Assembly (NCBI GenBank): GCA_003136895.1
Contig: PLDY01000054.1
Location: 18,537 to 70,139 of the forward strand
Direction of reading: 5' to 3'
DNA: 51,603 bases
DNA from: Candidatus Erabacter solicola
GTDB lineage: Bacteria > Vulcanimicrobiota > Vulcanimicrobiia > Vulcanimicrobiales > Vulcanimicrobiaceae
Shown here one piece after another: positions 14,165 through 28,372 of this stretch. Under the pieces are notes generated by a model, which made no database searches, was not told the DNA's origin, and worked only from the letters and a program-made list of their open reading frames with translations. The position numbers and the translations under genes were made by a program. The first letter of the stretch is position 1. Every line of letters begins with the position of its first letter.

Positions 14165-17100
14165 GTGCCTGAGACCATCGTCAAGGTGACCCTCCCCGAG
14201 ATGGGCGAGTCGGTCACGGAGGGCTCGATTGTCGAGTGGCGGGTCAAGCCGGGCCAGTGGATCGAGGCCGGCGAGACGCTGGTCGATATCACGACGGACA
14301 AAGTCGACGTCGAAGTGCCCGCCCCTGCGGCCGGCGTCGTCAAAACGCTGCTCGCCGAAGAAGGCGCGACGCTCGCCGTCGGCGCAGGGCTCGCCGAGAT
14401 CGATACAGCCGCACCCAAACCAGAGGGTGCCGCCCAAGCGGCCCCGGCGCCAAGAGCCGACTCGCCGAAACCTCAGAACCCTTTGCCAAGCCCCGCCGCG
14501 ACGAATGGGGCGTCGCGGACGGGCGGTGCGGCATCCTACGGCGCGCGCCGTCTGGCCGAACGCGAACAGCTCGACATCACGAAAATTGCCGGCAGCGGAC
14601 CCGACGGTCTGATTCTGCGCGCGGATGTTCTGCGCGCGATGGCTTCGCCCGCAGTCCGGGCTGCAGCGCCCCAACCGCCCCTCGCGCGCGGTGCGAAGGT
14701 GACGCCGCTGCGGGGTCCGGCCGCGTCGCTGGTCGGGTACATGGAAGCGAGTCTCACTATTCCGACCGCGACGAGTTTGCGTACGTTGCAAGTCGCCGCG
14801 CTCGAACTGCGCCGCGCCGAACTCAACGCGGCGCTCAAGGCTGCCGGCCGCGGCGAGAAGGTCTCGTTCACGCACTTGATCGCGTTCGCGCTCGTGCAGG
14901 CTGCGCGCCAAGAGCCGGCGATCGTCGCGTCGTTCCGGCGCGACGATGGCACGCCGAGCCGCGTCGAGAGTGGCATCCATCTCGGGCTCGCCGTCGACAC
15001 GCAGCGTAAGGACGGCGCGCGCTTTCTGGTCGTGCCGGTCGTCAAGAACGCCGACACATTGGATTTCGCCGCATTTCGCGCCGCCTACGAAGATCTGGTC
15101 GCGAAGGCGCGCGATAACAAACTTGCGGCCGACGATCTGAGCGGAGCGAGCTTTACGCTGACCAATCCCGGCGGCATCGGGACCGTCGCCTCGGTGCCGC
15201 GTTTGATGCCGGGACAGGGCGCCATTATCGCCGCGGGCGCGATCGGCTATCCGGCCGGCTTCCAACACGCGAAGGAACCGGCTCTCAAGCAACTTGGCGT
15301 CGAGAAGACGATGACCTTGACGAGCACCTACGATCACCGCGTGATTGCGGGCGCGCAGTCGGGCGAGTATCTGAGGCGGGTCGACGAGTTGCTGCAAGGC
15401 GCGAACGGTTTTTACGATTCGATCTTTGCAAGCCTCGGGCTCGAGCCGGGTCGTGCCGCGCGCGCCGCGCAAGCGGCGGCACCGGTCGCCGTGACGGAGT
15501 TGGCTCCGGCCGCGCCGCGCGAGATGGAAGCGTACTCCGATGAACTCTTGCGCGCCGTTGCGGCCGGGATGTCGATCGTTTCGTCGTATCGCCGTCACGG
15601 GCACTTGGCCGCGACGCTCGATCCGCTCGGAGCGCAGCCACCGGGCGATCCGGCGCTCGACGCGCACACGTACGGTCTGACGCCGTCGATCATGTCGGCG
15701 ATCCCTGCGTCGATTCTGCGCACGAAGTTGAAGGGCAGCACGCTGGCCGAGATCGTCGGCGAGTTGCGACGCACATACAGCTCCACGATCGCGTACGAGA
15801 TCGAGCACATAGCGAACATCGAACAACGCGAGTGGCTGCGCGACTACATCGAGTCGGGAATGCACGTCGTTCCGCTTTCACCGGAGAACGCGCGCAACGT
15901 GCTCGCGCGCTTGACGAGAGTCGAGACGTTCGAACGGTATCTGCGTAAGACGTACTTGGGCCAGAAGACATTTTCGATCGAGGGTCTGGATATCACGGTC
16001 GCGATGCTCGAAGAGATGGTCAGCGCGCTCGCCGACGACGGAACGCAGACGGCGGTCGTCGGCATGGCGCATCGCGGCCGCCTCTCGACGATCACCCACG
16101 TGGTCAATCGGCCCTACGAAGAAATTTTGGCGGAGTTCGAAGCCGCCGACGGGCGCGGCGAGGGCGACGACGATCAGGATGCGACCGGCGATGTCAAGTA
16201 CCACCACGGCGCGAGCGGAACGTATCTCACCGCCGGCGGGCGCGAGATCGCGGTCGAGTTGGCCGCAAACCCGAGCCATCTCGAGGCCGTCGACGGCGTG
16301 GTCGAGGGACGAACGCGCGCGCGCCAGACCAATCACACTACACCGCAGGCGACGCTCGAGATCGGCCGGGCCGCTCCGATTCTGATCCACGGCGACGCGG
16401 CGTTCAGCGCTCAGGGCGTCGTCGCGGAAGTCCTCAACCTGCAAGGGCTCGCCGGATATGCGACCGGCGGCACGCTGCACATCATCGCCAACAACCAGAT
16501 CGGCTTCACGACCGATCCGAGCGATGCGCGTTCGACGCGTTACGCCTCCGATTTGGCAAAAGGTTTCGACGTTCCGATCGTTCACGTCAACGCCGACGAC
16601 GTCGAGGCGTGCATCGCTGCCGTTCGCTTGACGCTCGATTTCCGCCGCCGCTTCGGCCACGACGCCATCATCGACGTGATCGGTTACCGCCGCTTCGGGC
16701 ACAACGAGACCGACGAGCCCGCATACACCCAGCCCGACATGTACGAGCGCATCAAGACGCACCCGACGGTACGCGAACTGTACGCGCAGCGTCTGATCGC
16801 GCAGAGCATCATTACCTCGGAAGAAGTGAACGCGCTGGTCGCGCAAGCGACGGCGCGGATAACCGAAGCACAGAAGACCGTGAAGACCGGCGTCTGGCGT
16901 CCCGCGGCAAACCCCGTCGCGCCGAATGGTGCGGCCACGTCTTCGGCCGTGCTCGACACCACGGTGTCGCGCGAGAAACTGCTGGCTTGGAATGACGATC
17001 TGGTTGCGGTGCCGGCGACCTTTACGGTACATCCGAAGCTCGCTCGCCAACTCGAGCGCCGTAAGGCCGCATTCGCGAGCGAGGGCGAAGCCGATTGGGG

Positions 17101-18127
17101 TCTGGCGGAGTCGCTCGCGTTCGCCTCGCTGCTCGCGGAAGGCACGCCGATCCGTCTGACCGGTCAAGACACGCAGCGCGGCACGTTCAGCCACCGTCAC
17201 ATCATGCTGCACGATCCCAAGACCGATCTGACCTACGCGCCGATTCAGCATCTCGCCGGCGGCCTCGCATCGTTCGAAGTCTACAACAGTCCGCTCTCGG
17301 AGTACGCGTGTCTCGGTTTCGAATACGGCTACAGCGTCGAGCTGCCGAAGGCGCTCGTTCTGTGGGAAGCGCAGTTCGGCGATTTTATGAACGGCGCGCA
17401 GATCATCATCGATCAATTCATCGCGGCCGGGCAGGCCAAGTGGGGCGAGACTTCGCGTCTGGTCTTACTGTTGCCGCACGGCTACGAAGGCGCGGGACCC
17501 GAACATTCGAGCGCTCGCATCGAACGCTTTCTGCAGCTTTCGGCCGAAGGCAACGTGCGCGTCGCCAACTGCTCGAACGCCGCGCAGTACTTTCACTTAT
17601 TGCGCCTGCAAGCGCTCACTCCGAAAGCTTTGCCGCTCGTCATCTTCACGCCGAAGAGCCTGCTGCGGCTCAAGGCCGCATCGGCCGGCATCGACGAGTT
17701 GAGCGGCGGCCGCTTCCGGCCCCTCATCGACGACCCGCGCTTCGCGCAGGACCGCTCGGCGGTCGAGCGCGTCTTGATGTGTTCGGGTAAGATCTATTAC
17801 GATCTGATCGGTAACGCAGCGTACGACGCGATGAAGAAAACCGCGCTCGTTCGCTTGGACCTGCTCTCGCCGCTGCCGCTCGATGAGATCCTGGAACTGC
17901 TCGGCTCGTATCCGAATCGCAAGCGCGTGGTTTGGGTTCAGGAAGAACCGAAGAACATGGGCGCGCGCGCGCACGTTCGGCGCCGGCTGGTCGAGCGCTT
18001 ACCGGACGGCGTCGCCGACGTCGAGTACGTCGGCCGCTCCTACCGCGCGAGCCCGAGTGAAGGGTATGGCGGGGCTCACGCGGTGGAGCAAGAGCGCATC
18101 GTCAAAGAAGCGCTCACCGAAACGTAG
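14165..18127 (+). CDS. Fused 2-oxoglutarate dehydrogenase: lipoyl-E3BD-E2 succinyltransferase-E1
   Basis: This 1320-residue enzyme joins two subunits that are usually separate. Residues 1-80 are a lipoyl domain with Lys46 in TTDKVDVEV, followed by an Ala/Pro linker. Residues 124-160 are a peripheral-subunit (E3)-binding domain, and 180-430 the E2 transferase with His391 in STYDHRVIAGA. Residues 450-1320 are ThDP-dependent E1 (GDAAFSAQG, NNQIGF, HRHIMLHDP). The order E2-E1 is that of actinobacterial OdhA/Kgd, but those lack the lipoyl and E3-binding domains. As in OdhA, the E2 catalytic Asp after DHR is absent (IAG). The start is GTG at 14165. It converts 2-oxoglutarate to succinyl-CoA; no E3 (lpd) gene is nearby. 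Confidence 0.95.
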   Translation: MPETIVKVTLPEMGESVTEGSIVEWRVKPGQWIEAGETLVDITTDKVDVEVPAPAAGVVKTLLAEEGATLAVGAGLAEIDTAAPKPEGAAQAAPAPRADSPKPQNPLPSPAATNGASRTGGAASYGARRLAEREQLDITKIAGSGPDGLILRADVLRAMASPAVRAAAPQPPLARGAKVTPLRGPAASLVGYMEASLTIPTATSLRTLQVAALELRRAELNAALKAAGRGEKVSFTHLIAFALVQAARQEPAIVASFRRDDGTPSRVESGIHLGLAVDTQRKDGARFLVVPVVKNADTLDFAAFRAAYEDLVAKARDNKLAADDLSGASFTLTNPGGIGTVASVPRLMPGQGAIIAAGAIGYPAGFQHAKEPALKQLGVEKTMTLTSTYDHRVIAGAQSGEYLRRVDELLQGANGFYDSIFASLGLEPGRAARAAQAAAPVAVTELAPAAPREMEAYSDELLRAVAAGMSIVSSYRRHGHLAATLDPLGAQPPGDPALDAHTYGLTPSIMSAIPASILRTKLKGSTLAEIVGELRRTYSSTIAYEIEHIANIEQREWLRDYIESGMHVVPLSPENARNVLARLTRVETFERYLRKTYLGQKTFSIEGLDITVAMLEEMVSALADDGTQTAVVGMAHRGRLSTITHVVNRPYEEILAEFEAADGRGEGDDDQDATGDVKYHHGASGTYLTAGGREIAVELAANPSHLEAVDGVVEGRTRARQTNHTTPQATLEIGRAAPILIHGDAAFSAQGVVAEVLNLQGLAGYATGGTLHIIANNQIGFTTDPSDARSTRYASDLAKGFDVPIVHVNADDVEACIAAVRLTLDFRRRFGHDAIIDVIGYRRFGHNETDEPAYTQPDMYERIKTHPTVRELYAQRLIAQSIITSEEVNALVAQATARITEAQKTVKTGVWRPAANPVAPNGAATSSAVLDTTVSREKLLAWNDDLVAVPATFTVHPKLARQLERRKAAFASEGEADWGLAESLAFASLLAEGTPIRLTGQDTQRGTFSHRHIMLHDPKTDLTYAPIQHLAGGLASFEVYNSPLSEYACLGFEYGYSVELPKALVLWEAQFGDFMNGAQIIIDQFIAAGQAKWGETSRLVLLLPHGYEGAGPEHSSARIERFLQLSAEGNVRVANCSNAAQYFHLLRLQALTPKALPLVIFTPKSLLRLKAASAGIDELSGGRFRPLIDDPRFAQDRSAVERVLMCSGKIYYDLIGNAAYDAMKKTALVRLDLLSPLPLDEILELLGSYPNRKRVVWVQEEPKNMGARAHVRRRLVERLPDGVADVEYVGRSYRASPSEGYGGAHAVEQERIVKEALTET

Positions 18128-18644: not shown

Positions 18645-18665
18645 CGAACCTAACGCGAACCTAAC
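18645..18665. repeat. Tandem CGAACCTAAC repeat, 11-bp period
   Basis: CGAACCTAAC occurs at 18645-18654 and again at 18656-18665, one DNA turn apart. The copies overlap the paiB stop and lie upstream of the secreted-protein gene, whose possible -10 element (TATAAG on the minus strand) is about 25 bp away. The layout is that of an activator or response-regulator direct-repeat site. Confidence 0.35.
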
Positions 18666-19317
18666 CTTCGGGATTTTCGCGTTGCGCCAAGAGCGAGCTC
18701 ATGATCTGCGCCGTCGAGCGATCTTCCTGACGCTCTGAAACGGCGAGCGCATCGATCGCGCCCGCGACATCGGCGGCCGGGCGGTTTTGGCTCATCTTCC
18801 ATTTACCGACCAAGCGCTCGATCGGCATGCGCAGGCCGACGATGCCTTTCAATTGCGAATCGATGAATTCGCGCGGCGCGTCCGCCACCGCCCAGGGCGC
18901 TGGCCGGCCCTGCTCGTTCGTCTCGGTCAAGCGCGTCACCAGATCGCGCAAACGTTCGGCATCCTCGAAGATCTCGGCGCGACCGTGCGCGTGGATCGCG
19001 ACGTAGTTCCACGTCGGCACGACCTTCCCGGTCTCGCGCGTGGTCGCATACCACGCGGGCGATACATATGCGTGCGGCCCCAGGAAGATCGCGAGTGCTT
19101 CGGTCTGCGGCGTCAGCACGCGCCAGTGTGGATTCGCGCGCGCGAAATGAAAGAGCAGCGTGCCGTTTGCACCGGGACCGGATTCCAGCAGCATCGGAAC
19201 GTGACTTGCGATCAGCCCATCGGCGCTTTGAGTGACGATCGTGGCAAACGGAGATTGCCGGATGGCCTCGTGCAGCTGCGCGATGTCATCGAGCGCGAAG
19301 TGCGCGGGGACGTACAC
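18661..19317 (-). CDS. PaiB-like FMN-binding transcriptional regulator
   Basis: This is a 218-residue protein of the PaiB/FMN-binding split-barrel family. Segments typical of the family are the N-terminal MYVPAHFAL, SHVPMLLE, HFARANPHW, VSPAWYATT, VPTWNYVAIHAHGRAE and QLKGIVGLRMPIERL. In Bacillus, PaiB affects sporulation and protease gene expression; here its role is unknown. The start is GTG at 19317, two bases past the oligopeptidase B stop, so it is probably translated from the same mRNA. The frame is open further upstream, but that extension overlaps the peptidase and lacks family similarity. Confidence 0.85.
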   Translation of the reverse strand: MYVPAHFALDDIAQLHEAIRQSPFATIVTQSADGLIASHVPMLLESGPGANGTLLFHFARANPHWRVLTPQTEALAIFLGPHAYVSPAWYATTRETGKVVPTWNYVAIHAHGRAEIFEDAERLRDLVTRLTETNEQGRPAPWAVADAPREFIDSQLKGIVGLRMPIERLVGKWKMSQNRPAADVAGAIDALAVSERQEDRSTAQIMSSLLAQRENPEG

Positions 19318-19318
19318 G

Positions 19319-21445
19319 TCAGCGCGCCGCTGCGGGCGTGATCTCCGAGAGGATGAAGGCGTAGTTGAACGCGGTCTCCTTGAGCGCGTCGTAGCGTCCG
19401 GATGCCCCACCGTGACCCGCTCCGAAGTTGACCTCGAGCAGCAACGGATTGTGGCCGGTATTGAGCGCGCGTATCTTAGCGACGAGTTTCGAGCCTTCCC
19501 AGTACGGGACTTGGCTATCGTTGATCGAGACGCGCACCAGCATCGCCGGATACGCTTGCGCCGTGACGTTGTCGTAGGGCGAGTAGCGCATCATGTAGTC
19601 GTAGTCGGCCTTCACGTTCGGATTGCCCCACTCGAGATACTCGGCCGTCGTCAGCGGCAGGCTTGGGTCGAGCATCGTGTTCATCACGTCGACGAACGGG
19701 ACGGCCGCGACGACTGCTTTAAAGAGGTCGGGCCGCATATTCGTCACCGCGCCCATCAGCAGACCGCCGGCGCTGCCGCCCAGAATCGCGAGCCGGTCCT
19801 TCGAGGTATAATGCGCGCCGACCAGATACTCCGTGCAGTCGATGAAGTCGGTGAAGGTGTTCAGCTTATGCATCAGGTGACCCGACGTGCGCCAAGCCTC
19901 GCCCAATTCTCCGCCGCCGCGGATCATCGCGTTAGCATAGACAACTCCGCGATCGAGCAGCACCAGACGCGAGGCCGCGAACGTCGGATCGGTCGAACTC
20001 CCGTACGAACCGTAGCCATAGAGGAGCATCGGCGCCGAGCCGTCAAGCATGGTGCCGCGCTTATAGACGAGCGCGATCGGAACGTGCGTGCCGTCGCGCG
20101 CGGTCGCGTACTTCAACTCCGAGACGTACGCTGAAGCGTCGTAGCCGGGAACCTCGGTTTGCTTGAGGAGCGTGCGTTTGCCGGTCTTCAAATCCAGATC
20201 GAAGACCGAATTCGGCGTGACGAGCGACGTGTAGCTATAGCGGAACGTCGTGCTGGAATGTTCACGGTTCGCCGAGGGAAATGCGGTATGCACTATCTCG
20301 GGAAACTCGACCTGCGAGCGTTTACCCGTTTTGAAATCGAGCAACTCGAGGCTCGCGAAGCCGCCCGTGCGCTCGGAGATGACGGCATAGTCGTCGAAAA
20401 CGGTTAAGCCGGTGAGGTGCACGCCGGCACGCTGCGGGACGATTTCGCTCCAGTGCGCTTCGTCCGGCGTCCGTAGGGGCGCGCTAACGACCCGGTAGTC
20501 CTCGGCTCCGCGGTTGGTCAGGATCAACCAGCGGTCGCCGTGATGCTCCACATGATAGCGATGGTCGATTTGCCGCGCGATCAGGACCTTGAGCGGGTCC
20601 GCCGGCCGATCGGCCTGGATATAGCGGGACTCGGTCGTCGACTTGCTGGCGGCGTCCAAGAAGATGAATTTCCCGTCGAGCGAACGATGCACGCCGATGT
20701 CGTAGAGCTCGTCCTTCTCGGTGTAGAGCACATCGCTTGAGGGAGCGCCCAACGTATGGCGCCAGAACGTGTCGTTGCGTTTGCTGACCTCATCCTCGGT
20801 GACGTAGAAGAGCGTCTTGTTATCCGACGCCCAGGCCGCGTCGTCAACGCGCGGGATACTCTCGCCCAGGCCGGCGCCCGTCGCCAGATTCTTCACGTGG
20901 AGCGTGTACTGGCGGTAACCGGTCGTATCGAGCGAGTACGCGAGGAGGTTGCCGTCGTCGCTGACCTCGTACAGGCCGAGTCCTAAGAACTTTTTGCCTT
21001 GCGCTAAGACGTTGAGATCGAGCGTGATCTCCTCGGGCGCATCGAGGCTGCCGCGCTTGCGCGCCAAGATCGGGTACTGTTTGCCCTCTTCCGTGCGCGA
21101 ATAATAGTAGTAGTCTCCGTACTTATACGGAACTTGCAGGTCGCTCTGTTTGATGTGCGAGAGCATCTCGTCGTAGAGTCGCTGCTGCAACGCTTCCGTC
21201 GGTTTCATGACGGCGGCCGTGTAGGCGGTTTCCGCCTGCAAGTAGCTCGTGACCGCCGGATCGCTCTTCTGGCGGAGCCAGAAGTAGTCGTCGGCACGTT
21301 TATATCCGTTGATTTCGCTCGGATGTGCGATCCTCGCCGCGACGGGGGGCGTGGCGACCGCGGGATCGAGTGTGGCCGCGGCGGCCGTGCTAAAGGGAGA
21401 CGACATCAAGACACCCGTGATGAGCAGCGAACATACAAAGCGCAT
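19319..21445 (-). CDS. ptrB: Secreted oligopeptidase B / prolyl oligopeptidase family serine peptidase (S9A)
   Basis: This 708-residue serine peptidase has a signal peptide (residues 1 to about 24), a seven-bladed propeller region (about 90-420) and a C-terminal alpha/beta hydrolase domain. The catalytic triad is visible as Ser558 (GGSAGG), Asp643 (NDSQVPYWE) and His678 (GAGHGGASGR). The NDSQVPYWE and GAGHGG contexts are those of oligopeptidase B, which cuts short peptides after Lys or Arg. Most oligopeptidase B proteins are cytosolic, so the signal peptide suggests a periplasmic role. It follows the lysine catabolism genes in the same direction with a gap of 49 bp and could supply lysine from peptides (inference). 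Confidence 0.92.
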   Translation of the reverse strand: MRFVCSLLITGVLMSSPFSTAAAATLDPAVATPPVAARIAHPSEINGYKRADDYFWLRQKSDPAVTSYLQAETAYTAAVMKPTEALQQRLYDEMLSHIKQSDLQVPYKYGDYYYYSRTEEGKQYPILARKRGSLDAPEEITLDLNVLAQGKKFLGLGLYEVSDDGNLLAYSLDTTGYRQYTLHVKNLATGAGLGESIPRVDDAAWASDNKTLFYVTEDEVSKRNDTFWRHTLGAPSSDVLYTEKDELYDIGVHRSLDGKFIFLDAASKSTTESRYIQADRPADPLKVLIARQIDHRYHVEHHGDRWLILTNRGAEDYRVVSAPLRTPDEAHWSEIVPQRAGVHLTGLTVFDDYAVISERTGGFASLELLDFKTGKRSQVEFPEIVHTAFPSANREHSSTTFRYSYTSLVTPNSVFDLDLKTGKRTLLKQTEVPGYDASAYVSELKYATARDGTHVPIALVYKRGTMLDGSAPMLLYGYGSYGSSTDPTFAASRLVLLDRGVVYANAMIRGGGELGEAWRTSGHLMHKLNTFTDFIDCTEYLVGAHYTSKDRLAILGGSAGGLLMGAVTNMRPDLFKAVVAAVPFVDVMNTMLDPSLPLTTAEYLEWGNPNVKADYDYMMRYSPYDNVTAQAYPAMLVRVSINDSQVPYWEGSKLVAKIRALNTGHNPLLLEVNFGAGHGGASGRYDALKETAFNYAFILSEITPAAAR

Positions 21446-21494: not shown

Positions 21495-21905
21495 CTAGGG
21501 CGGCTGCGCCGCGAGAGCGACTTCCTGGCCGAATGAAATCTCGAGCATGTGTCCGTCGGGATCGGCGATGAGGGCCCAATATCCGACCGGATACCCGGAG
21601 TCGGTCGGTCCGCTCTTCAGGCGTTTCTCATCGCGCGCCAAGGCGCAGCGCTCGTCAACCGCCGCGCGGCTCGGAAGACCGATCCCGAGGTGCGCGTTTG
21701 GTCCGAGCGGGTTGCGAACCGGATCGGCCGCCTCGATCAGGACCAGGACGAAGGGTCGCGTCCGATCGCTGAGCCACACGACCCGTTTGCCGTCGTCACG
21801 CCGGCTGTGCACGATTCCCATCCGGGCGTAGCGCGCGTAAAAATCGACGCTAGCATCGATATCGTGCGCGTAGAGTGCGATGTGGGTAAAGCCGATATCG
21901 CTCAC
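21495..21905 (-). CDS. VOC-superfamily (glyoxalase/dioxygenase-fold) protein
   Basis: This is a 136-residue protein with one vicinal-oxygen-chelate fold. It has FTHIALYAHDIDASVDFYARY at the N-terminus (metal-ligand His in THIAL) and DPDGHMLEISFG at the C-terminus (Glu ligand). Family members include glyoxalase I, epimerases and extradiol dioxygenases; the reaction cannot be assigned. The start is GTG at 21905. It is 7 bases downstream of the ABM gene in the lrp-kdd-kamA run, so it may take part in the same pathway. Confidence 0.82.
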   Translation of the reverse strand: MSDIGFTHIALYAHDIDASVDFYARYARMGIVHSRRDDGKRVVWLSDRTRPFVLVLIEAADPVRNPLGPNAHLGIGLPSRAAVDERCALARDEKRLKSGPTDSGYPVGYWALIADPDGHMLEISFGQEVALAAQPP

Positions 21906-21912
21906 GCGGGCT

Positions 21913-22203
21913 CTATTCGGCGAACGGGATGTAAAGTTCCGGCTCGCGGCGCTCGGCGATTTTCTGGATGCCGTTCTTCCCGTAGCGCTCGAAGTGCGGG
22001 GCCGAGCGGTGAGCCTCGAGCGCGGCCTCGTCGTCGTACTGCTCGTAGATGAAGAACTTCGCCGGATCGTTCTTAGCGCGATGCACGACGTACATCCGGC
22101 AGCCGGACTCCCGGCGCGAGGCTGGGATCAACTCGCGGAAGTAGCCCGCGGCTTCCTCTTCGTGCCCGGCTTTGAAGACGTAGGTGACGGCCAGGGCGAT
22201 CAT
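21913..22203 (-). CDS. Antibiotic biosynthesis monooxygenase (ABM) domain protein
   Basis: This is a 96-residue ABM/dimeric alpha-beta barrel protein. Segments are LAVTYVFKAGHEEEAAGYFREL, SGCRMYVVHRAKNDP, FFIYEQYDDEAALEAH and SAPHFERYG, with the characteristic EQYDDEAALEAHRSAPHF block. Homologues include quinol monooxygenase YgiN and LsrG isomerase; the catalytic role here is unknown. Its ATG overlaps the kamA TGA (TGATG), so it is translated with lysine aminomutase. This linkage is not a known part of lysine degradation. Confidence 0.83.
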   Translation of the reverse strand: MIALAVTYVFKAGHEEEAAGYFRELIPASRRESGCRMYVVHRAKNDPAKFFIYEQYDDEAALEAHRSAPHFERYGKNGIQKIAERREPELYIPFAE

Positions 22204-23594
22204 CAGGCGGGCACGTACGTTCGCGGGCCGCCCGCGGCGACGATGGCGTCGGCGATCATGCGCTCGGCTTCCCCCGGATGACGCCAGCGGGATTGTGCGT
22301 CGGGATCGAGCGTATCGATTGGATCGAAGTAGACGAAGTGTTTGCCGGGCTTCACGCTCGGCGCGGAATAGACCGCGATGCCGTTCGAGCGATCGTAGTG
22401 ATCGAAACTGTGGACGTCGCGCTTTCCGCCGCCGCCCGGAGCGTCGCAGATAAAGGTCGGCGTGTTGAAGCCGGCCGTCGAACCGCGCACGAATTTCTCG
22501 ACGTCGATCGCGGTCGCAATCGAGGTGCGCAAGTCCTCGACGCCTTTCACAAGATCGTGCATGTAGACGTAGTAAGCGTGCACGTTGAGGTAGCCGAGGC
22601 GCTTCACCAGCAACTGCATCACTTCGGGATCGTCGTTCACGCCGCGGATCAGGACCGTCTGGTTGCGTACGGTGATACCGCGTTCGAAGAGCAGCCGCAT
22701 CGCCTTCTCGGTGATCCAACTGACCTCGTTCGGGTTGTTGAAATGCGTGTGGATGACGACTTCCTTGCCGAGCGCGCGACCGCTGTCGACGACAGCGGTC
22801 ACCGCATCCGTCCAAGCGTGATCGGTCAAAATCTTCATCGGCATGACGGCCGGCCCTTTGGTCGCGAACCGCATGCGGCGCACGTGCGGAATCGACAGGA
22901 GGGCGTCGCCGATCGTCGCGATCGATTTCGGCGCAAGCTGGTAGACGTCGCCACCGGAGATCACGATATCTTCGAGTTCCGGCCGCGAAGCTATGTAGTC
23001 GAATGCGTCCTGCCACTGTTTGGGGGTACGCGCCAGCGGAACTTTGTCGACGGATTCCGTGTCGGCGCCGATTGCGTACGAGCGCGTGCAGAAGCGACAG
23101 TATACCGGGCAGACGTTCAGCGGCAGAAACAACGCTTTGTCGACGTAGCGGTGCGTCAGGCCCGGCACCGGTGAATCCTCGAGTTCGTGGAGCGAGTCGA
23201 GCGTCAAGCGCGGATGATCGGGGAGCAGTTTCGACGCCAGCGGAATGAACTGCGTGCGGATCGGGTCGCTGTAGGGCCGCTCCCAATCGATCGACGCGAT
23301 CATGTACGGCGAGACGCGCACCGCCATGGGCGCGCGCCGAAACCCTTCGCGCGCATCGCTGAAGAACGATGGTTCGACCAGCTCTTTGACGGTGGCGAGT
23401 AGCTCGTCCGCCGATTTGACGGAGTTCTGCCCTTGCCAGATGTGATCGAGGAACGTCGCCTCATCGATCTCGCGATACTTGGGAATCGAGCGCCAGAACT
23501 CGCCCTGACGCCAATTCGTGTGCGCGAACGCTTCCGGCCCGGCCGGCGGTTTGAGGTGGTGTTCGCGAACGACTGGTTCCATGTGGTCTTTCAT
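22203..23594 (-). CDS. kamA: L-lysine 2,3-aminomutase (radical SAM, PLP)
   Basis: This 463-residue enzyme converts L-lysine to L-beta-lysine. The [4Fe-4S]/SAM motif C162-x3-C166-x2-C169 (CPVYCRFC) is present, as is the SAM-loop SGGDVYQL. The PLP lysine is Lys391 in PGGGGK. Two acidic residues that recognise the lysine side chain in the clostridial enzyme (its Asp293 and Asp330) are matched by Asp347 (MHDL) and Asp384 (CDAPG) with the same spacing of 37. This favours true lysine specificity over the EpmB or glutamate type. The start ATG 23594 overlaps the kdd TGA by 4 bases (ATGA). It lies in a run with kdd and an Lrp-type regulator. Confidence 0.95.
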   Translation of the reverse strand: MKDHMEPVVREHHLKPPAGPEAFAHTNWRQGEFWRSIPKYREIDEATFLDHIWQGQNSVKSADELLATVKELVEPSFFSDAREGFRRAPMAVRVSPYMIASIDWERPYSDPIRTQFIPLASKLLPDHPRLTLDSLHELEDSPVPGLTHRYVDKALFLPLNVCPVYCRFCTRSYAIGADTESVDKVPLARTPKQWQDAFDYIASRPELEDIVISGGDVYQLAPKSIATIGDALLSIPHVRRMRFATKGPAVMPMKILTDHAWTDAVTAVVDSGRALGKEVVIHTHFNNPNEVSWITEKAMRLLFERGITVRNQTVLIRGVNDDPEVMQLLVKRLGYLNVHAYYVYMHDLVKGVEDLRTSIATAIDVEKFVRGSTAGFNTPTFICDAPGGGGKRDVHSFDHYDRSNGIAVYSAPSVKPGKHFVYFDPIDTLDPDAQSRWRHPGEAERMIADAIVAAGGPRTYVPA

Positions 23595-24655
23595 GCGATG
23601 GGGGACGGAGAGACAAAGCGGTCGAGAAAATATGCCAAGACGGGTGGATGGTCGCGCAACATTTGCAACGCGATCGCCGCATGGTCCTTGGCGTACCCGT
23701 TGCCGACGATCATCGTGACGTCTTTCCCCACGCCTTCGGCGCCGAGCGCGGCGGCCGTGAACGAGGTGCACATCGAGAAGAAGTAGATCGTCCCGGCGTC
23801 TCTGGTGCAGAGGATCGATGCGAGTTCCGTTCCGGGCACGTTGACGCAGCTGATCGTCAGATCGGCGAGTTCGGGGAGCGTGGAAGCGACGCTCTCGAAT
23901 GCGGCGAGCGGCTCGCGCGCGTCGGCGGCGACGAACGCGTCGACGTAGCCGTGGTCGAGCAACAGTCGTGCGCCGGCGGTCGCCGCATCGGGTGCGATAC
24001 CGACGACGCGGCCGCTCGGGCCGACGCGTTCGCGCGCTGCAACGCAGGCAAGTATGCCGGATTTTCCGTCGGCGCCGAAGACGGCGACCGTCGCGCCAAG
24101 TGTCGCCAAGCGCCGAACCTGGGCCGGCGCACCGGCGACATCGAGAACGGCGAGCGCGACGTCGGCCGGAATATCGTCGGGCAAGATCGCGTATGTCCCG
24201 CTCGCGAAGAGCACGGCGCTGCCGCGAATCCAGATGCGGCCGCAGGCAGGATCCACGCGCAGAACTTCATCGATATGGAGCGGCGTCAGGGTGAGCGAGA
24301 CGAGCGAGGCGATGCGATCGCCTTCGCGTAGATCGATCCGCTCGCGCAGCGCTGCGCCGATCGTTCGGACGCGGCCGATGAACATGCCGCCGCTTCCGGT
24401 CGCCGGATTGTGCTGCTTGCCGCGTTCGGCAACGAGCGCGATGACGTTCGCGGCGATGCGCGAGGGGTCGCCGTCGCACGCGCCGGCGATCTGCCTGAAC
24501 GAAGCCGAGTCGATGTTGAGCGCATCGACATCGCAGAGGATCTCGTTCTCGTAGGCGACCGCGGTGGCGTCGAGACGCCACGCGCTCTGAGGCAAGACGC
24601 CCACAGGTTCGAGCACTCGGTGGCTTCCGAGGCGGCAGGCCTTTTCGCGTCTCAC
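23591..24655 (-). CDS. kdd: L-erythro-3,5-diaminohexanoate dehydrogenase
   Basis: This is a 354-residue NAD-dependent oxidative deaminase of the lysine fermentation pathway. It converts 3,5-diaminohexanoate to 5-amino-3-oxohexanoate. The family signature is visible: GSHRVLEPVGVLPQSAWRL, ENEILCDVDALNIDSASF, GKQHNPATGSGG and a Rossmann-type VFGADGKSG. It shares stop/start overlaps with both lrp (upstream, ATGA) and kamA (downstream, ATGA). The intermediate mutase kamDE (beta-lysine 5,6-aminomutase) and kce/kal are not in the window, so they must lie elsewhere or be replaced. Confidence 0.93.
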   Translation of the reverse strand: MRREKACRLGSHRVLEPVGVLPQSAWRLDATAVAYENEILCDVDALNIDSASFRQIAGACDGDPSRIAANVIALVAERGKQHNPATGSGGMFIGRVRTIGAALRERIDLREGDRIASLVSLTLTPLHIDEVLRVDPACGRIWIRGSAVLFASGTYAILPDDIPADVALAVLDVAGAPAQVRRLATLGATVAVFGADGKSGILACVAARERVGPSGRVVGIAPDAATAGARLLLDHGYVDAFVAADAREPLAAFESVASTLPELADLTISCVNVPGTELASILCTRDAGTIYFFSMCTSFTAAALGAEGVGKDVTMIVGNGYAKDHAAIALQMLRDHPPVLAYFLDRFVSPSPIA

Positions 24656-25146
24656 GCTGCGGGCGCGCGTTCGCCGACGAGATCGGCGAGCGGCAGACCT
24701 TCGCGCTCGAACGGCGTCGAGAGTACGATCGTCGTTTTGGTGCGCGCGATGCCGGCGACCACCTTGAGCCGCGACAGAAACGCGTCGAGGTGACCGGTCG
24801 AGCGAGTCAATACTTTGAGAACGAACGACTCCTCGCCCGCGACGCTGTGCACTTCCGCAACCTCGGGCAACGCCGCGACCGCCGATTGAAATGCGTCGTA
24901 ACGAACTTCGGAAGTCGTGTAGACGCTAACGAACGCGGTCAATGCGATGCCGAGACGGCGTGCGTCGAGACGAGCTGTATAGCCTTTAAGATAACCGCGC
25001 GATTCCAAGCGCTTCACGCGATCGTGGACCGCCGACGAACCCAGACCGACGACAGCCGCCAATTCGGCGAAGGTCGAGCGCGCATTACGCTGGAGGCCTT
25101 CCAGCAGACGAAGGTCGAGCTCGTCGAGCTCAGGGTGATCGAACAT
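24652..25146 (-). CDS. Lrp/AsnC-family transcriptional regulator
   Basis: This is a 164-residue Lrp/AsnC protein. The N-terminal helix-turn-helix LDELDLRLLEGLQRNARSTF...VGLGSSAVHDRVKRLESRGYL is at residues 4-55, and the C-terminal RAM ligand-binding domain contains EVAEVHSVAGEESFVLKV. Family members sense amino acids. Here it leads the kdd-kamA run with an ATGA overlap, so it probably senses lysine or a degradation intermediate and controls the operon (inference). The start ATG 25146 has GGGAG upstream. A promoter and direct TTATCCGG repeats lie 40-90 bp upstream. Confidence 0.9.
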   Translation of the reverse strand: MFDHPELDELDLRLLEGLQRNARSTFAELAAVVGLGSSAVHDRVKRLESRGYLKGYTARLDARRLGIALTAFVSVYTTSEVRYDAFQSAVAALPEVAEVHSVAGEESFVLKVLTRSTGHLDAFLSRLKVVAGIARTKTTIVLSTPFEREGLPLADLVGERAPAA

Positions 25147-25292: not shown

Positions 25293-26948
25293 ATGAGCAG
25301 GCGCCCGGGAGAGCGCGGCGCACGTATCGCCGCGATGCTCGGCCTCTGGACTCGTCGGCTCGGCGTGGCGTTCGGCCTGATCGCGCTTCCTCTCGCCGCC
25401 GGCTGCGGCCGGCAGCCGCCGCCCGTTTCGACCGTACGCTTCGATATCTCCGCGGACCCCGGGACGCTCGATCCGCTCTTCGCACATGCGGATGCAGCCA
25501 ACGTCGAGCAGCAGCTGGCGCACCTTGTCTTCGAACCATTCTTCGATCTCGATCCGCGCGGACGTCTGGTTCCCGAACTCGTCACGACCGTTCCAAGCGT
25601 GACGAACGGTGGAGTCTCGCCCGATGGGCGCACGATCGTCTACCACTTGCGGCGTGCCGTACGCTGGAGCGACGGCGAGCCCGTCACCGCGCGCGACGTA
25701 CTGTTCACGCTGCACGCCCTGCTCGACCCGGCCAACCCGGTCGGTTCGCGCGAAGGATACGAATTGATCGATCGCGCCGAGGCGCTCGATCGGTACACCG
25801 TCCGCTTTCATCTCAAGCGCGCGTGGGCGCCGGCCGTCGCCACGTTCTTCGCATACGGCACCGCACCGCAATACGTTCTGCCCGAACATGTCCTCGCGCA
25901 GCAGGCGCCGCTGGCACGCGCACCGTTTGCGGCCGCGCCGAACGTCGGCGACGGACCGTATGCGTTTGTCGAATGGCGGCGCGGCGATCGCCTCGTCTAT
26001 CGCTCCAACCCACGCTACTGGCGCGGCGCGCCGAAGGTCGCGCGGCTCGAGGTCGCTATCGTTCCCGACCCGCAGACGAACCTGACGCTGTTGCGTTCGG
26101 GCGCGATCGACTTCAATCTGATCGCACCGTCGCAGATCGCAACGTTGCGCGACGCGAGCGACATTGCCTACGCTGAGGTGCCGACCGCGCTCGTCGCCGG
26201 CATCGCCCTCAACGTATCGCATCCGCCGCTCGACGACGTGCGCGTCCGGCGGGCGATCGCGGCCGGCATCGATCGCGCCGGCATCAGCGCCAAGATCACG
26301 CTCGGTAAATATCCCGTCGCCGATTCGGACCGGCCGCGTTTTTCATGGGCGTACGATCCGGCGATCCGGCAGCCGCGCTACGACCCCGTGCGCGCCGATG
26401 CGCTGCTCGACGCCGCGGGATGGCATCGCGACGCCGGCGGCATGCGACGTAAGAGTGGCAAGTCGCTCTCGCTTACGTACGTGCAGTTTCCGGAGACGAC
26501 GACCGGCGTGCGCGTCGCCGCGCTCGTACAGCGCGAGTTGAGCGAGCGTGGTTTCGACGTAACGATCAAGCAGATCTCGAACGCGCAGCTCTTTCTCCCG
26601 ACGACGGGCGCCCTGGCCGCCGGCGCATTCGACATGGCCTACGTACCCTGGTCGATGGGCGCCGATCCGGACGACCGTTTTTTACTGGCATGTTCCGGCG
26701 CGGCCAAGAACTACATGCGCTACTGCGCGCGGGCGATCGAGCGGCTCGAAGAAGATGCGGTCGCCCGAGTCGGGCAAGCGGCGCGCCGCGCCGATTACAT
26801 CGCGATCGATCGCATCGTCGCCCGCGACGTTCCGATCGTCTATCTTTATAATCCCAGCTACGTCTATGCGTACCGGCAGCGTTTGCACGGGTTCGCGCCG
26901 AACGCGTTTTCTCCAACCTGGAACGCCTACGCCTGGAGCCTCGAATGA
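25293..26948 (+). CDS. ABC-type peptide/nickel substrate-binding lipoprotein (SBP family 5)
   Basis: This 551-residue protein carries a lipoprotein signal (LIALPLAAGC, Cys near residue 38) and a family 5 solute-binding fold. Visible blocks are FDISADPGTLDPLF, HLRRAVRWSDGEPVTARDVLFTL, NVGDGPYAFVEWRRGDRL and PPLDDVRVRRAIAAGIDR. Such proteins deliver peptides, metals or other solutes to Dpp/Opp/Nik permeases, but no permease or ATPase gene adjoins here. The downstream aldehyde dehydrogenase overlaps by 4 bases (ATGA). A later ATG at 25335 would give a tighter signal peptide; neither start has a strong ribosome site. Confidence 0.87.
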   Translation: MSRRPGERGARIAAMLGLWTRRLGVAFGLIALPLAAGCGRQPPPVSTVRFDISADPGTLDPLFAHADAANVEQQLAHLVFEPFFDLDPRGRLVPELVTTVPSVTNGGVSPDGRTIVYHLRRAVRWSDGEPVTARDVLFTLHALLDPANPVGSREGYELIDRAEALDRYTVRFHLKRAWAPAVATFFAYGTAPQYVLPEHVLAQQAPLARAPFAAAPNVGDGPYAFVEWRRGDRLVYRSNPRYWRGAPKVARLEVAIVPDPQTNLTLLRSGAIDFNLIAPSQIATLRDASDIAYAEVPTALVAGIALNVSHPPLDDVRVRRAIAAGIDRAGISAKITLGKYPVADSDRPRFSWAYDPAIRQPRYDPVRADALLDAAGWHRDAGGMRRKSGKSLSLTYVQFPETTTGVRVAALVQRELSERGFDVTIKQISNAQLFLPTTGALAAGAFDMAYVPWSMGADPDDRFLLACSGAAKNYMRYCARAIERLEEDAVARVGQAARRADYIAIDRIVARDVPIVYLYNPSYVYAYRQRLHGFAPNAFSPTWNAYAWSLE

Positions 26949-28372
26949 TCGTCGAGCCCGTCGCGCCGGTCGACGCGGAGTTACAACGCCTCTTCGGCGA
27001 GCAGCGCCGTTGCTATCTCGCCGCACCGTCGCCGTCGCTCGGCGAGCGGCGTGCCAAACTCGACGCGCTGGAGCGCGCGATTCGAGCCCACCGCGAGGAC
27101 GTGATCGCGGCTCTGGCGGCCGACTTCAGTAAGCCGCGCGAAGAGGTCGAGGCGACCGAGATCCTTCCGACGCTCTCCGAACTCAAGCACGCGCGCTCGC
27201 ATATGGCCGCTTGGAGCCGGCCCCTGCGGGTCGCGACGCCGCCCACGCTGCTCGGTTCGCGCAGCGAGGTCCGCTACGAGCCGAAGGGCATCGTGCTGAT
27301 TCTCGCGCCGTGGAATTATCCGTTCTATCTCCTGATGACGCCGCTGATCGCGGCGCTCGCGGCCGGAAATCGCGCGATCGTGCGCTCGTCGGAGAAGGTT
27401 CCGCACGCGACGGCCGCCATGGCCACGATCGTACGCGAGGCGTTCGGCGCGCAGGACGTCGCGTTCGCCGAGGGCGGTATCGACGTCGCCGAACAACTGC
27501 TGCGCCTGCCCTTCGATCATATCTTTTTCACGGGAAGTACGCGGGTCGGGAAAATCGTCATGCGCGCCGCGGCCGAACATCTCGCCGGCGTGACGCTCGA
27601 ACTTGGCGGGAAATCGCCGGCATTCGTGAGCGCTGACGGCGACGTGCAACTCGCGGCCGAACGTATCGCGTGGGGCAAGTTCATGAACGCGGGCCAAACC
27701 TGCGTCGCCCCCGACTACGTGCTGGTGCACGAATCGCAAGAACGCGCCTTCGTCGAGCGCACGATAGCCTGTGTCGAGAAGATGTACGGTCGCAGCGAAG
27801 AGGATCGCGCGCACACCCCGGATCTCTGCCGCCTCGTGAACGACGGCGCATTCGAACGTCTCGAGGGCCTGCTCGAAGCAACGGTCGCGGAGGGGGCGCG
27901 CGTCGAACTCGGCGGGGCGCGCGATCGCGCGCAGCGCTACATCGCGCCGACGATTTTGACCGGCGTTCGCTTTACCTCACCGATGATGGCCGACGAAATC
28001 TTCGGCCCGATCTTGCCGGTCCTGACGTATCGCTCGCTGGACGAGGCGATCGCGCAAGTGAACTCGAGGCCCAAACCGCTGGCGCTCTACGCATTTGCCG
28101 CAAAACGGACGGCGCGGCGGATCGTCGAGGGGACGAGCGCCGGCGGGACGGCGATCAACGACGTCGTCGTGCACCTGGCCAACCCGAACCTGCCGTTCGG
28201 CGGTATCGGTGCGAGCGGCGTCGGAAACTATCACGGTCATTTCGGTTTCCGCGCCTTCTCGCACGAACGTGCGGTCCTGTACCAGGGGCGGCGCAGCGCG
28301 GTCGCGCTGCTCTATCCGCCGTATCGTAAAGCGACGCGAACGGTCCTCGCGCTGATGGACCGCTTCTTCTAA
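26945..28372 (+). CDS. Aldehyde dehydrogenase (ALDH3/coniferyl-type)
   Basis: This is a 475-residue NAD(P)-dependent aldehyde dehydrogenase. It has APWNYPF at residues 121-127 with the Asn of the oxyanion hole, the base Glu219 in LELGGKSP, the nucleophile Cys253 in NAGQTCVAP, and FTGSTRVGK for cofactor binding. Length and the PWNYP-GQTC pattern place it in the ALDH3/coniferyl or fatty-aldehyde group. It is translationally coupled to the peptide-binding lipoprotein, an unusual pairing. Its stop is 1 base from the convergent pntB stop. Confidence 0.9.
   Translation: MIVEPVAPVDAELQRLFGEQRRCYLAAPSPSLGERRAKLDALERAIRAHREDVIAALAADFSKPREEVEATEILPTLSELKHARSHMAAWSRPLRVATPPTLLGSRSEVRYEPKGIVLILAPWNYPFYLLMTPLIAALAAGNRAIVRSSEKVPHATAAMATIVREAFGAQDVAFAEGGIDVAEQLLRLPFDHIFFTGSTRVGKIVMRAAAEHLAGVTLELGGKSPAFVSADGDVQLAAERIAWGKFMNAGQTCVAPDYVLVHESQERAFVERTIACVEKMYGRSEEDRAHTPDLCRLVNDGAFERLEGLLEATVAEGARVELGGARDRAQRYIAPTILTGVRFTSPMMADEIFGPILPVLTYRSLDEAIAQVNSRPKPLALYAFAAKRTARRIVEGTSAGGTAINDVVVHLANPNLPFGGIGASGVGNYHGHFGFRAFSHERAVLYQGRRSAVALLYPPYRKATRTVLALMDRFF

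Follow-up and report, generated by a model that had tools for sequence, protein, structure and literature searches.

The genes lrp, kdd and kamA, together with the genes of an ABM-domain protein and a VOC protein that follow them, form a real, conserved operon for the opening part of lysine fermentation, a known pathway. The window, by which we mean the whole 51,603-nt stretch of DNA that was analyzed, belongs to contig C35 in a MAG of Candidatus Erabacter solicola (2.85 Mb, 92% complete), whose closest relatives with names in the genome collection are MAGs of Candidatus Eremiobacterota and UBP12. Very probably lrp-kdd-kamA is the entry operon of this pathway and is separated from the remaining genes in this family; this judgement concerns the pathway reading and does not extend to the role of ABM and VOC. 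An earlier note on this DNA had described a lysine degradation operon, and this is borne out by the identities of Kdd and KamA, by synteny and by the pathway genes that are found in the same MAG. The genes of this ‘anaerobic’ lysine fermentation are a family-wide trait in Eremiobacterota, whose cultured member, Vulcanimicrobium alpinus, is an aerobe (PMC9758169).

Gene order and junctions

All five genes are on the minus strand, in the order lrp-kdd-kamA-ABM-VOC. The first, lrp (24652..25146), encodes a 164 amino acid regulator of the Lrp/AsnC family, in which the Pfam AsnC_trans_reg and HTH_AsnC-type domains score above cut-off. It is followed by kdd (23591..24655; GTG start), for a 354 amino acid L-erythro-3,5-diaminohexanoate dehydrogenase (NCBIfam NF052381, 7dl3), and by kamA (22203..23594), for a 463 amino acid lysine 2,3-aminomutase (TIGR00238, 2a5h). 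Behind these are the gene of a 96 amino acid ABM-domain protein (21913..22203; PF03992, 68 bits), probably an accessory or clean-up protein, and that of a 136 amino acid protein with a VOC/glyoxalase fold (21495..21905; GTG start; PF00903, 38.8 bits).

The lrp and kdd genes overlap by 4 nt (GTGA), kdd and kamA by 4 nt (ATGA) and kamA and ABM by 1 nt (TGATG); ABM and VOC do not overlap and are separated by a 7-nt gap. The earlier note was right that all junctions from lrp to ABM are overlaps, but it had read the first as ATGA; its gene set is also right, but its start at 21913 omits VOC, the end of which is at 21495. The 4-nt overlap of lrp and kdd is seen again in 30 of 39 related loci and that of kdd and kamA in 13 of 33, and because these overlaps recur among relatives the coupling is not due to chance.

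Identity of Kdd and KamA

Kdd passes the curated equivalog model NF052381 (242 bits; cut-off 200), which spans only the N-terminal half, and its residues 4-348 align full-length with the solved KDD structure 7dl3 (E 9e-86), a comparison in which the Glu of the ‘ALGAEG’ motif is retained. In the kdd of some far relatives an in-frame TGA/TAA was flagged as possible recoding; since the kdd genes of L182 and L183 are intact frames of 345 amino acids, the flagged stop is merely the end of the gene and recoding was rejected.

KamA scores above the TIGR00238 cut-off and aligns with 2a5h (E 7e-64) such that Asp347, Asp384 and Lys391 fall on Asp293, Asp330 and Lys337, the two Asp residues of 2a5h being those that read the lysine side chain. 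The radical SAM CX3CX2C cysteines are C162, C166 and C169 and the PLP lysine is K391; these cysteines, D347, D384 and K391 are identical in every KamA of the family that covers the positions. The alignment to 2a5h and that of the family both confirm that the two Asp residues of lysine specificity are kept, as had been noted earlier. KamA is the sole KamA-family protein in its genome. Its score is far below the curated AblA equivalog TIGR03820 (241 of 525 bits), which counts against the pathway reading, and from its residues we describe it as a divergent KamA-family protein that bears the LAM residues and is predicted to be a lysine 2,3-aminomutase.

The low AblA score also fits the idea that KamA makes β-lysine for another use, such as the osmolyte N-epsilon-acetyl-beta-lysine or the modification of EF-P, and one genome (G140) has kamA without kdd. 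Yet the AblB acetyltransferase (TIGR03827) was not found in the MAG of the window and no family member exceeds its cut-off; for this reason the osmolyte route (AblA-AblB) is unlikely and was rejected. Furthermore, kamA is coupled to kdd, and the substrate of Kdd comes from β-lysine via KamDE, which is present. We consider such another use of β-lysine the least probable of all readings given here, and keep to lysine fermentation.

The remaining pathway genes in the same genome

The earlier note had stated that KamDE, Kce and Kal are absent. This is true of the window only, as a genome-wide search found all of them on other contigs of the MAG. The kamD gene is split across C53 and C50, with its fragments at the contig ends, and a second N-terminal kamD copy is on C130; kamE adjoins kamD on C50, whereas kamB, kamC and kce are together on C142. 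Two kal genes are located on C28 and C88 (KAL 191 bits; cut-off 160), and a 3-oxoacid CoA-transferase pair is on C176. Some of the products are under their curated cut-offs, which speaks against the pathway reading: Kce by 4 bits (378 of 382), KamC (293 of 300), KamB (166 of 210) and the fragmentary KamD. Judged from its genes, this MAG encodes every step from lysine to crotonyl-CoA plus the CoA-transferase, in a set that is complete but dispersed. A missing step is ruled out by the genome-wide searches, which found kamD, kamE, kce and kal, and the description of the operon as partial with unknown steps fails, the complete pathway being found elsewhere in the same MAG. Looking at a single window is thus misleading about the completeness of a pathway whose genes are merely dispersed.

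The kal region is present in two versions (L208, C28:1-3839; L209, C88:15000-25000), as is the kamD N-terminus (L163 on C130; L161/L162 on C53/C50), on short contigs. This doubling suggests that the assembly includes a related second strain, or else that the duplication is genuine.

In the direction of flux that we infer, KamA would convert L-lysine to L-β-lysine, KamDE would convert this to 3,5-diaminohexanoate and Kdd would oxidize the latter to 5-amino-3-oxohexanoate. Kce would then react 5-amino-3-oxohexanoate with acetyl-CoA to give 3-aminobutyryl-CoA and acetoacetate, Kal would yield crotonyl-CoA and the 3-oxoacid CoA-transferase would activate the acetoacetate, with KamDE, Kce and Kal all encoded outside the operon. 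Lrp is likely a local regulator that probably controls the operon in response to lysine, its presumed ligand. Peptides are suggested as the lysine source because the gene of a peptide-type ABC solute-binding protein (25293..26948, plus strand; PF00496, 259 bits) diverges from lrp and because oligopeptide-type permeases are found downstream of kce.

One observation on a relative stands against the pathway reading: V. alpinus did not use L-lysine when this was the only carbon source (PMC9758169). A single-contig genome (G008; 3,508,363 bp), which is probably that of V. alpinus, carries the lysine pathway genes.

Conservation across the phylum

Among 148 genomes of the phylum, kdd was found in 100, kamD in 97, BKACE in 111 and kal in 94, and these are largely the same genomes. 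The lrp-kdd-kamA order is conserved throughout the family, with lrp upstream of kdd in nearly all family loci, and almost all family loci that are long enough show the gene of the solute-binding protein (55-82% identical) divergent from lrp. In a sister family (L188, L189) the order lrp-kdd-kamA-(response regulator)-kamB-kamC-kce-permeases is still together, which suggests that the cluster was split in the family of the window.

Several other genes were observed around these loci. The solute-binding protein gene overlaps by ATGA an aldehyde dehydrogenase gene (26945-28372, plus strand), and a similar gene is near in L002. At 14165-18127 (plus strand) the window encodes a 1320 amino acid protein that reads as a fused 2-oxoglutarate dehydrogenase of E2/E1 type, and in several relatives long frames that resemble such a fusion were likewise read close to the kam operon. 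In Betaproteobacteria such as Azoarcus, Aromatoleum and Ideonella (L014, L023, L026, L027, L033 and L064), kdd and a KamA-like gene are accompanied by an lrp-like gene in opposite orientation; these bacteria are another setting, apparently an aerobic one, for the lysine pathway.

The ABM and VOC proteins

The predicted model of the ABM protein has a pLDDT of 97.5, and its nearest folds are 4hl9, PA3566 (1x7v) and LsrG (2gff, 3qmq), with PA0709/ArqI lower in the list; on this model the protein is confidently predicted to have the ABM fold, near the PA3566 and LsrG structures. In VOC, sequence and alignment show a four-ligand metal-site pattern (H8, E58, H72 and E122), and one relative has Q at positions 58 and 122. 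VOC matches the general PF00903, with no curated glyoxalase I model among its matches, and its AlphaFold model, built on four sequences, has a pLDDT of 51, which is too low for the model to be of use.

In 11 genomes of seven genera ABM shares its strand with kamA and follows it by no more than 81 nt, in two of them overlapping, and within about 1 kb of kamA in 5 further genomes. VOC was found in only 4 genomes, of four genera, and adjoins ABM or kamA wherever the contig extends far enough; in G036, kamA and ABM-VOC are near the ends of two contigs and their adjacency is only likely. The linkage, for which a synteny check had been proposed, therefore extends beyond this genome, to 16 genomes in all for ABM and to four genera for VOC. 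The linked genomes share ancestry within one family and do not count as independent events.

Many near-complete genomes, G016, G019, G022, G026, G030 and G034 among them, carry the set of kdd, kamD, kce and kal with neither ABM nor VOC; since the whole pathway is present there, this gene content indicates that the two proteins are not obligatory steps. ABM and/or VOC could still catalyze a step in an altered form of the lysine pathway; instead of Kce or Kal they might, for example, isomerize or cleave a product of Kdd. This would agree with the overlap of the kamA and ABM genes, the ABM linkage in about ten genera, the weak likeness of ABM to LsrG, which isomerizes a keto compound, and the full metal-ligand pattern in VOC. 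However, Kce and Kal are in the same genome and leave no step open, and with the near-complete genomes above such a step is very improbable. The earlier note had offered both modification of an intermediate and detoxification; the former is very improbable, with Kce and Kal present in the genome, and the latter stays the best guess.

ABM and VOC are lineage-specific add-ons, for which clean-up is favored over a new pathway step. The Kdd product is a β-keto acid with its amino group β to the ketone, and it can decarboxylate and can lose ammonia to give an enone. ABM, together with VOC in a few genera, may serve in carbonyl damage control by removing or repairing reactive side products, such as those that 5-amino-3-oxohexanoate would give on decarboxylation and deamination. 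To our knowledge, ABM and VOC proteins are common and few of them have a known function; clean-up would give them a concrete accessory role. We prefer this reading, tentatively, because of the reactive chemistry of the Kdd product and because of a precedent in P. aeruginosa, where the ABM-glyoxalase operon arqI-gloA2 answers glyoxal stress; fused ABM-glyoxalase proteins also exist (PMC12274486). Against it, ArqI itself conferred no appreciable resistance to glyoxal (PMC12274486). In the 93%-complete G140 (L230/L224, C8), ABM directly follows kamA, and kdd, kamD and kal were not detected; this argues against a link of ABM to the pathway, and ABM may belong with KamA instead.

The gene behind VOC (19319..21445, minus strand) encodes a 708 amino acid S9A peptidase with an N-terminal signal-like stretch; the PDB structures that match it best are those of oligopeptidase B (E 4e-170). 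It starts 49 nt after VOC and is possibly on the same transcript; by match coordinates, such a gene is 24-66 nt after ABM or VOC in 6 genomes. We call it only oligopeptidase-B-like because it scores 595 of 1313 on the E. coli-type oligopeptidase B model. Its ‘TTAEYLEWGNP’ aligns with TTGEYDEWGNP of the solved oligopeptidase B and both S1-pocket glutamates, which in oligopeptidase B confer Lys/Arg specificity at P1, are kept. Downstream of the peptidase is the gene of a PaiB-like FMN-binding protein (18661..19410, minus strand; PF04299, 213 bits), the real start of which is probably further in; such a gene comes after the peptidase in L171 and after ABM in L170.

ABM, VOC and the peptidase may also be passengers, neighbors that have stayed in place because rearrangement is slow and that are functionally unconnected to lysine, and this is a serious possibility that comes second in our ranking. 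The genes downstream of kamA vary by genus (MscL, LOG-type, FMN-binding), in G012 ABM is paired with the peptidase some 10 kb away from kdd, and the linked cases, all in one family, may represent one inherited event. What speaks against passengers is the position of ABM directly behind kamA in the 11 genomes given above, whilst many other neighbors change. Clean-up remains our preferred reading, and it can be extended to a wider scenario that we regard as rather unlikely. A radical lysine pathway of anaerobe type, nearly universal in one family of a phylum with an aerobic cultured member, would have gained a dedicated ABM (and VOC) clean-up module, either to protect KamA or to get rid of reactive carbonyls derived from the unstable 5-amino-3-oxohexanoate, and would be fed by a secreted Lys/Arg peptidase.

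Comparison with known systems

The lysine pathway itself is known, but its organization here and the linkage to ABM and VOC appear undescribed in the literature that we searched, where we found no paper that connects Eremiobacterota with genes of lysine degradation, or ABM with lysine aminomutase. As in arqI-gloA2 of P. aeruginosa (PMC12274486), an ABM-domain gene adjoins a VOC/glyoxalase gene and the ABM fold is shared, but the ABM protein is only about 21% identical to PA0709 (by structure) and its gene is linked here to lysine catabolism. Candidatus Cloacamonas acidaminovorans has a variant lysine fermentation with kat in place of kal (PMC3149608). The KamA, KamDE, Kdd and Kce steps are shared with this variant, and kal is present here twice.

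The lysine fermentation cluster of Fusobacterium and Clostridia has the order kamA-kamB-kamC-kamD-kamE-kdd-kce-kal plus CoA-transferase. All of its genes have counterparts here, and kdd and kamA are adjacent as in most of the far loci that were found. In contrast to that single cluster, the genes here are at no fewer than four or five places, lrp leads the operon, a peptide-binding protein gene is divergent from it, and ABM and VOC are added.
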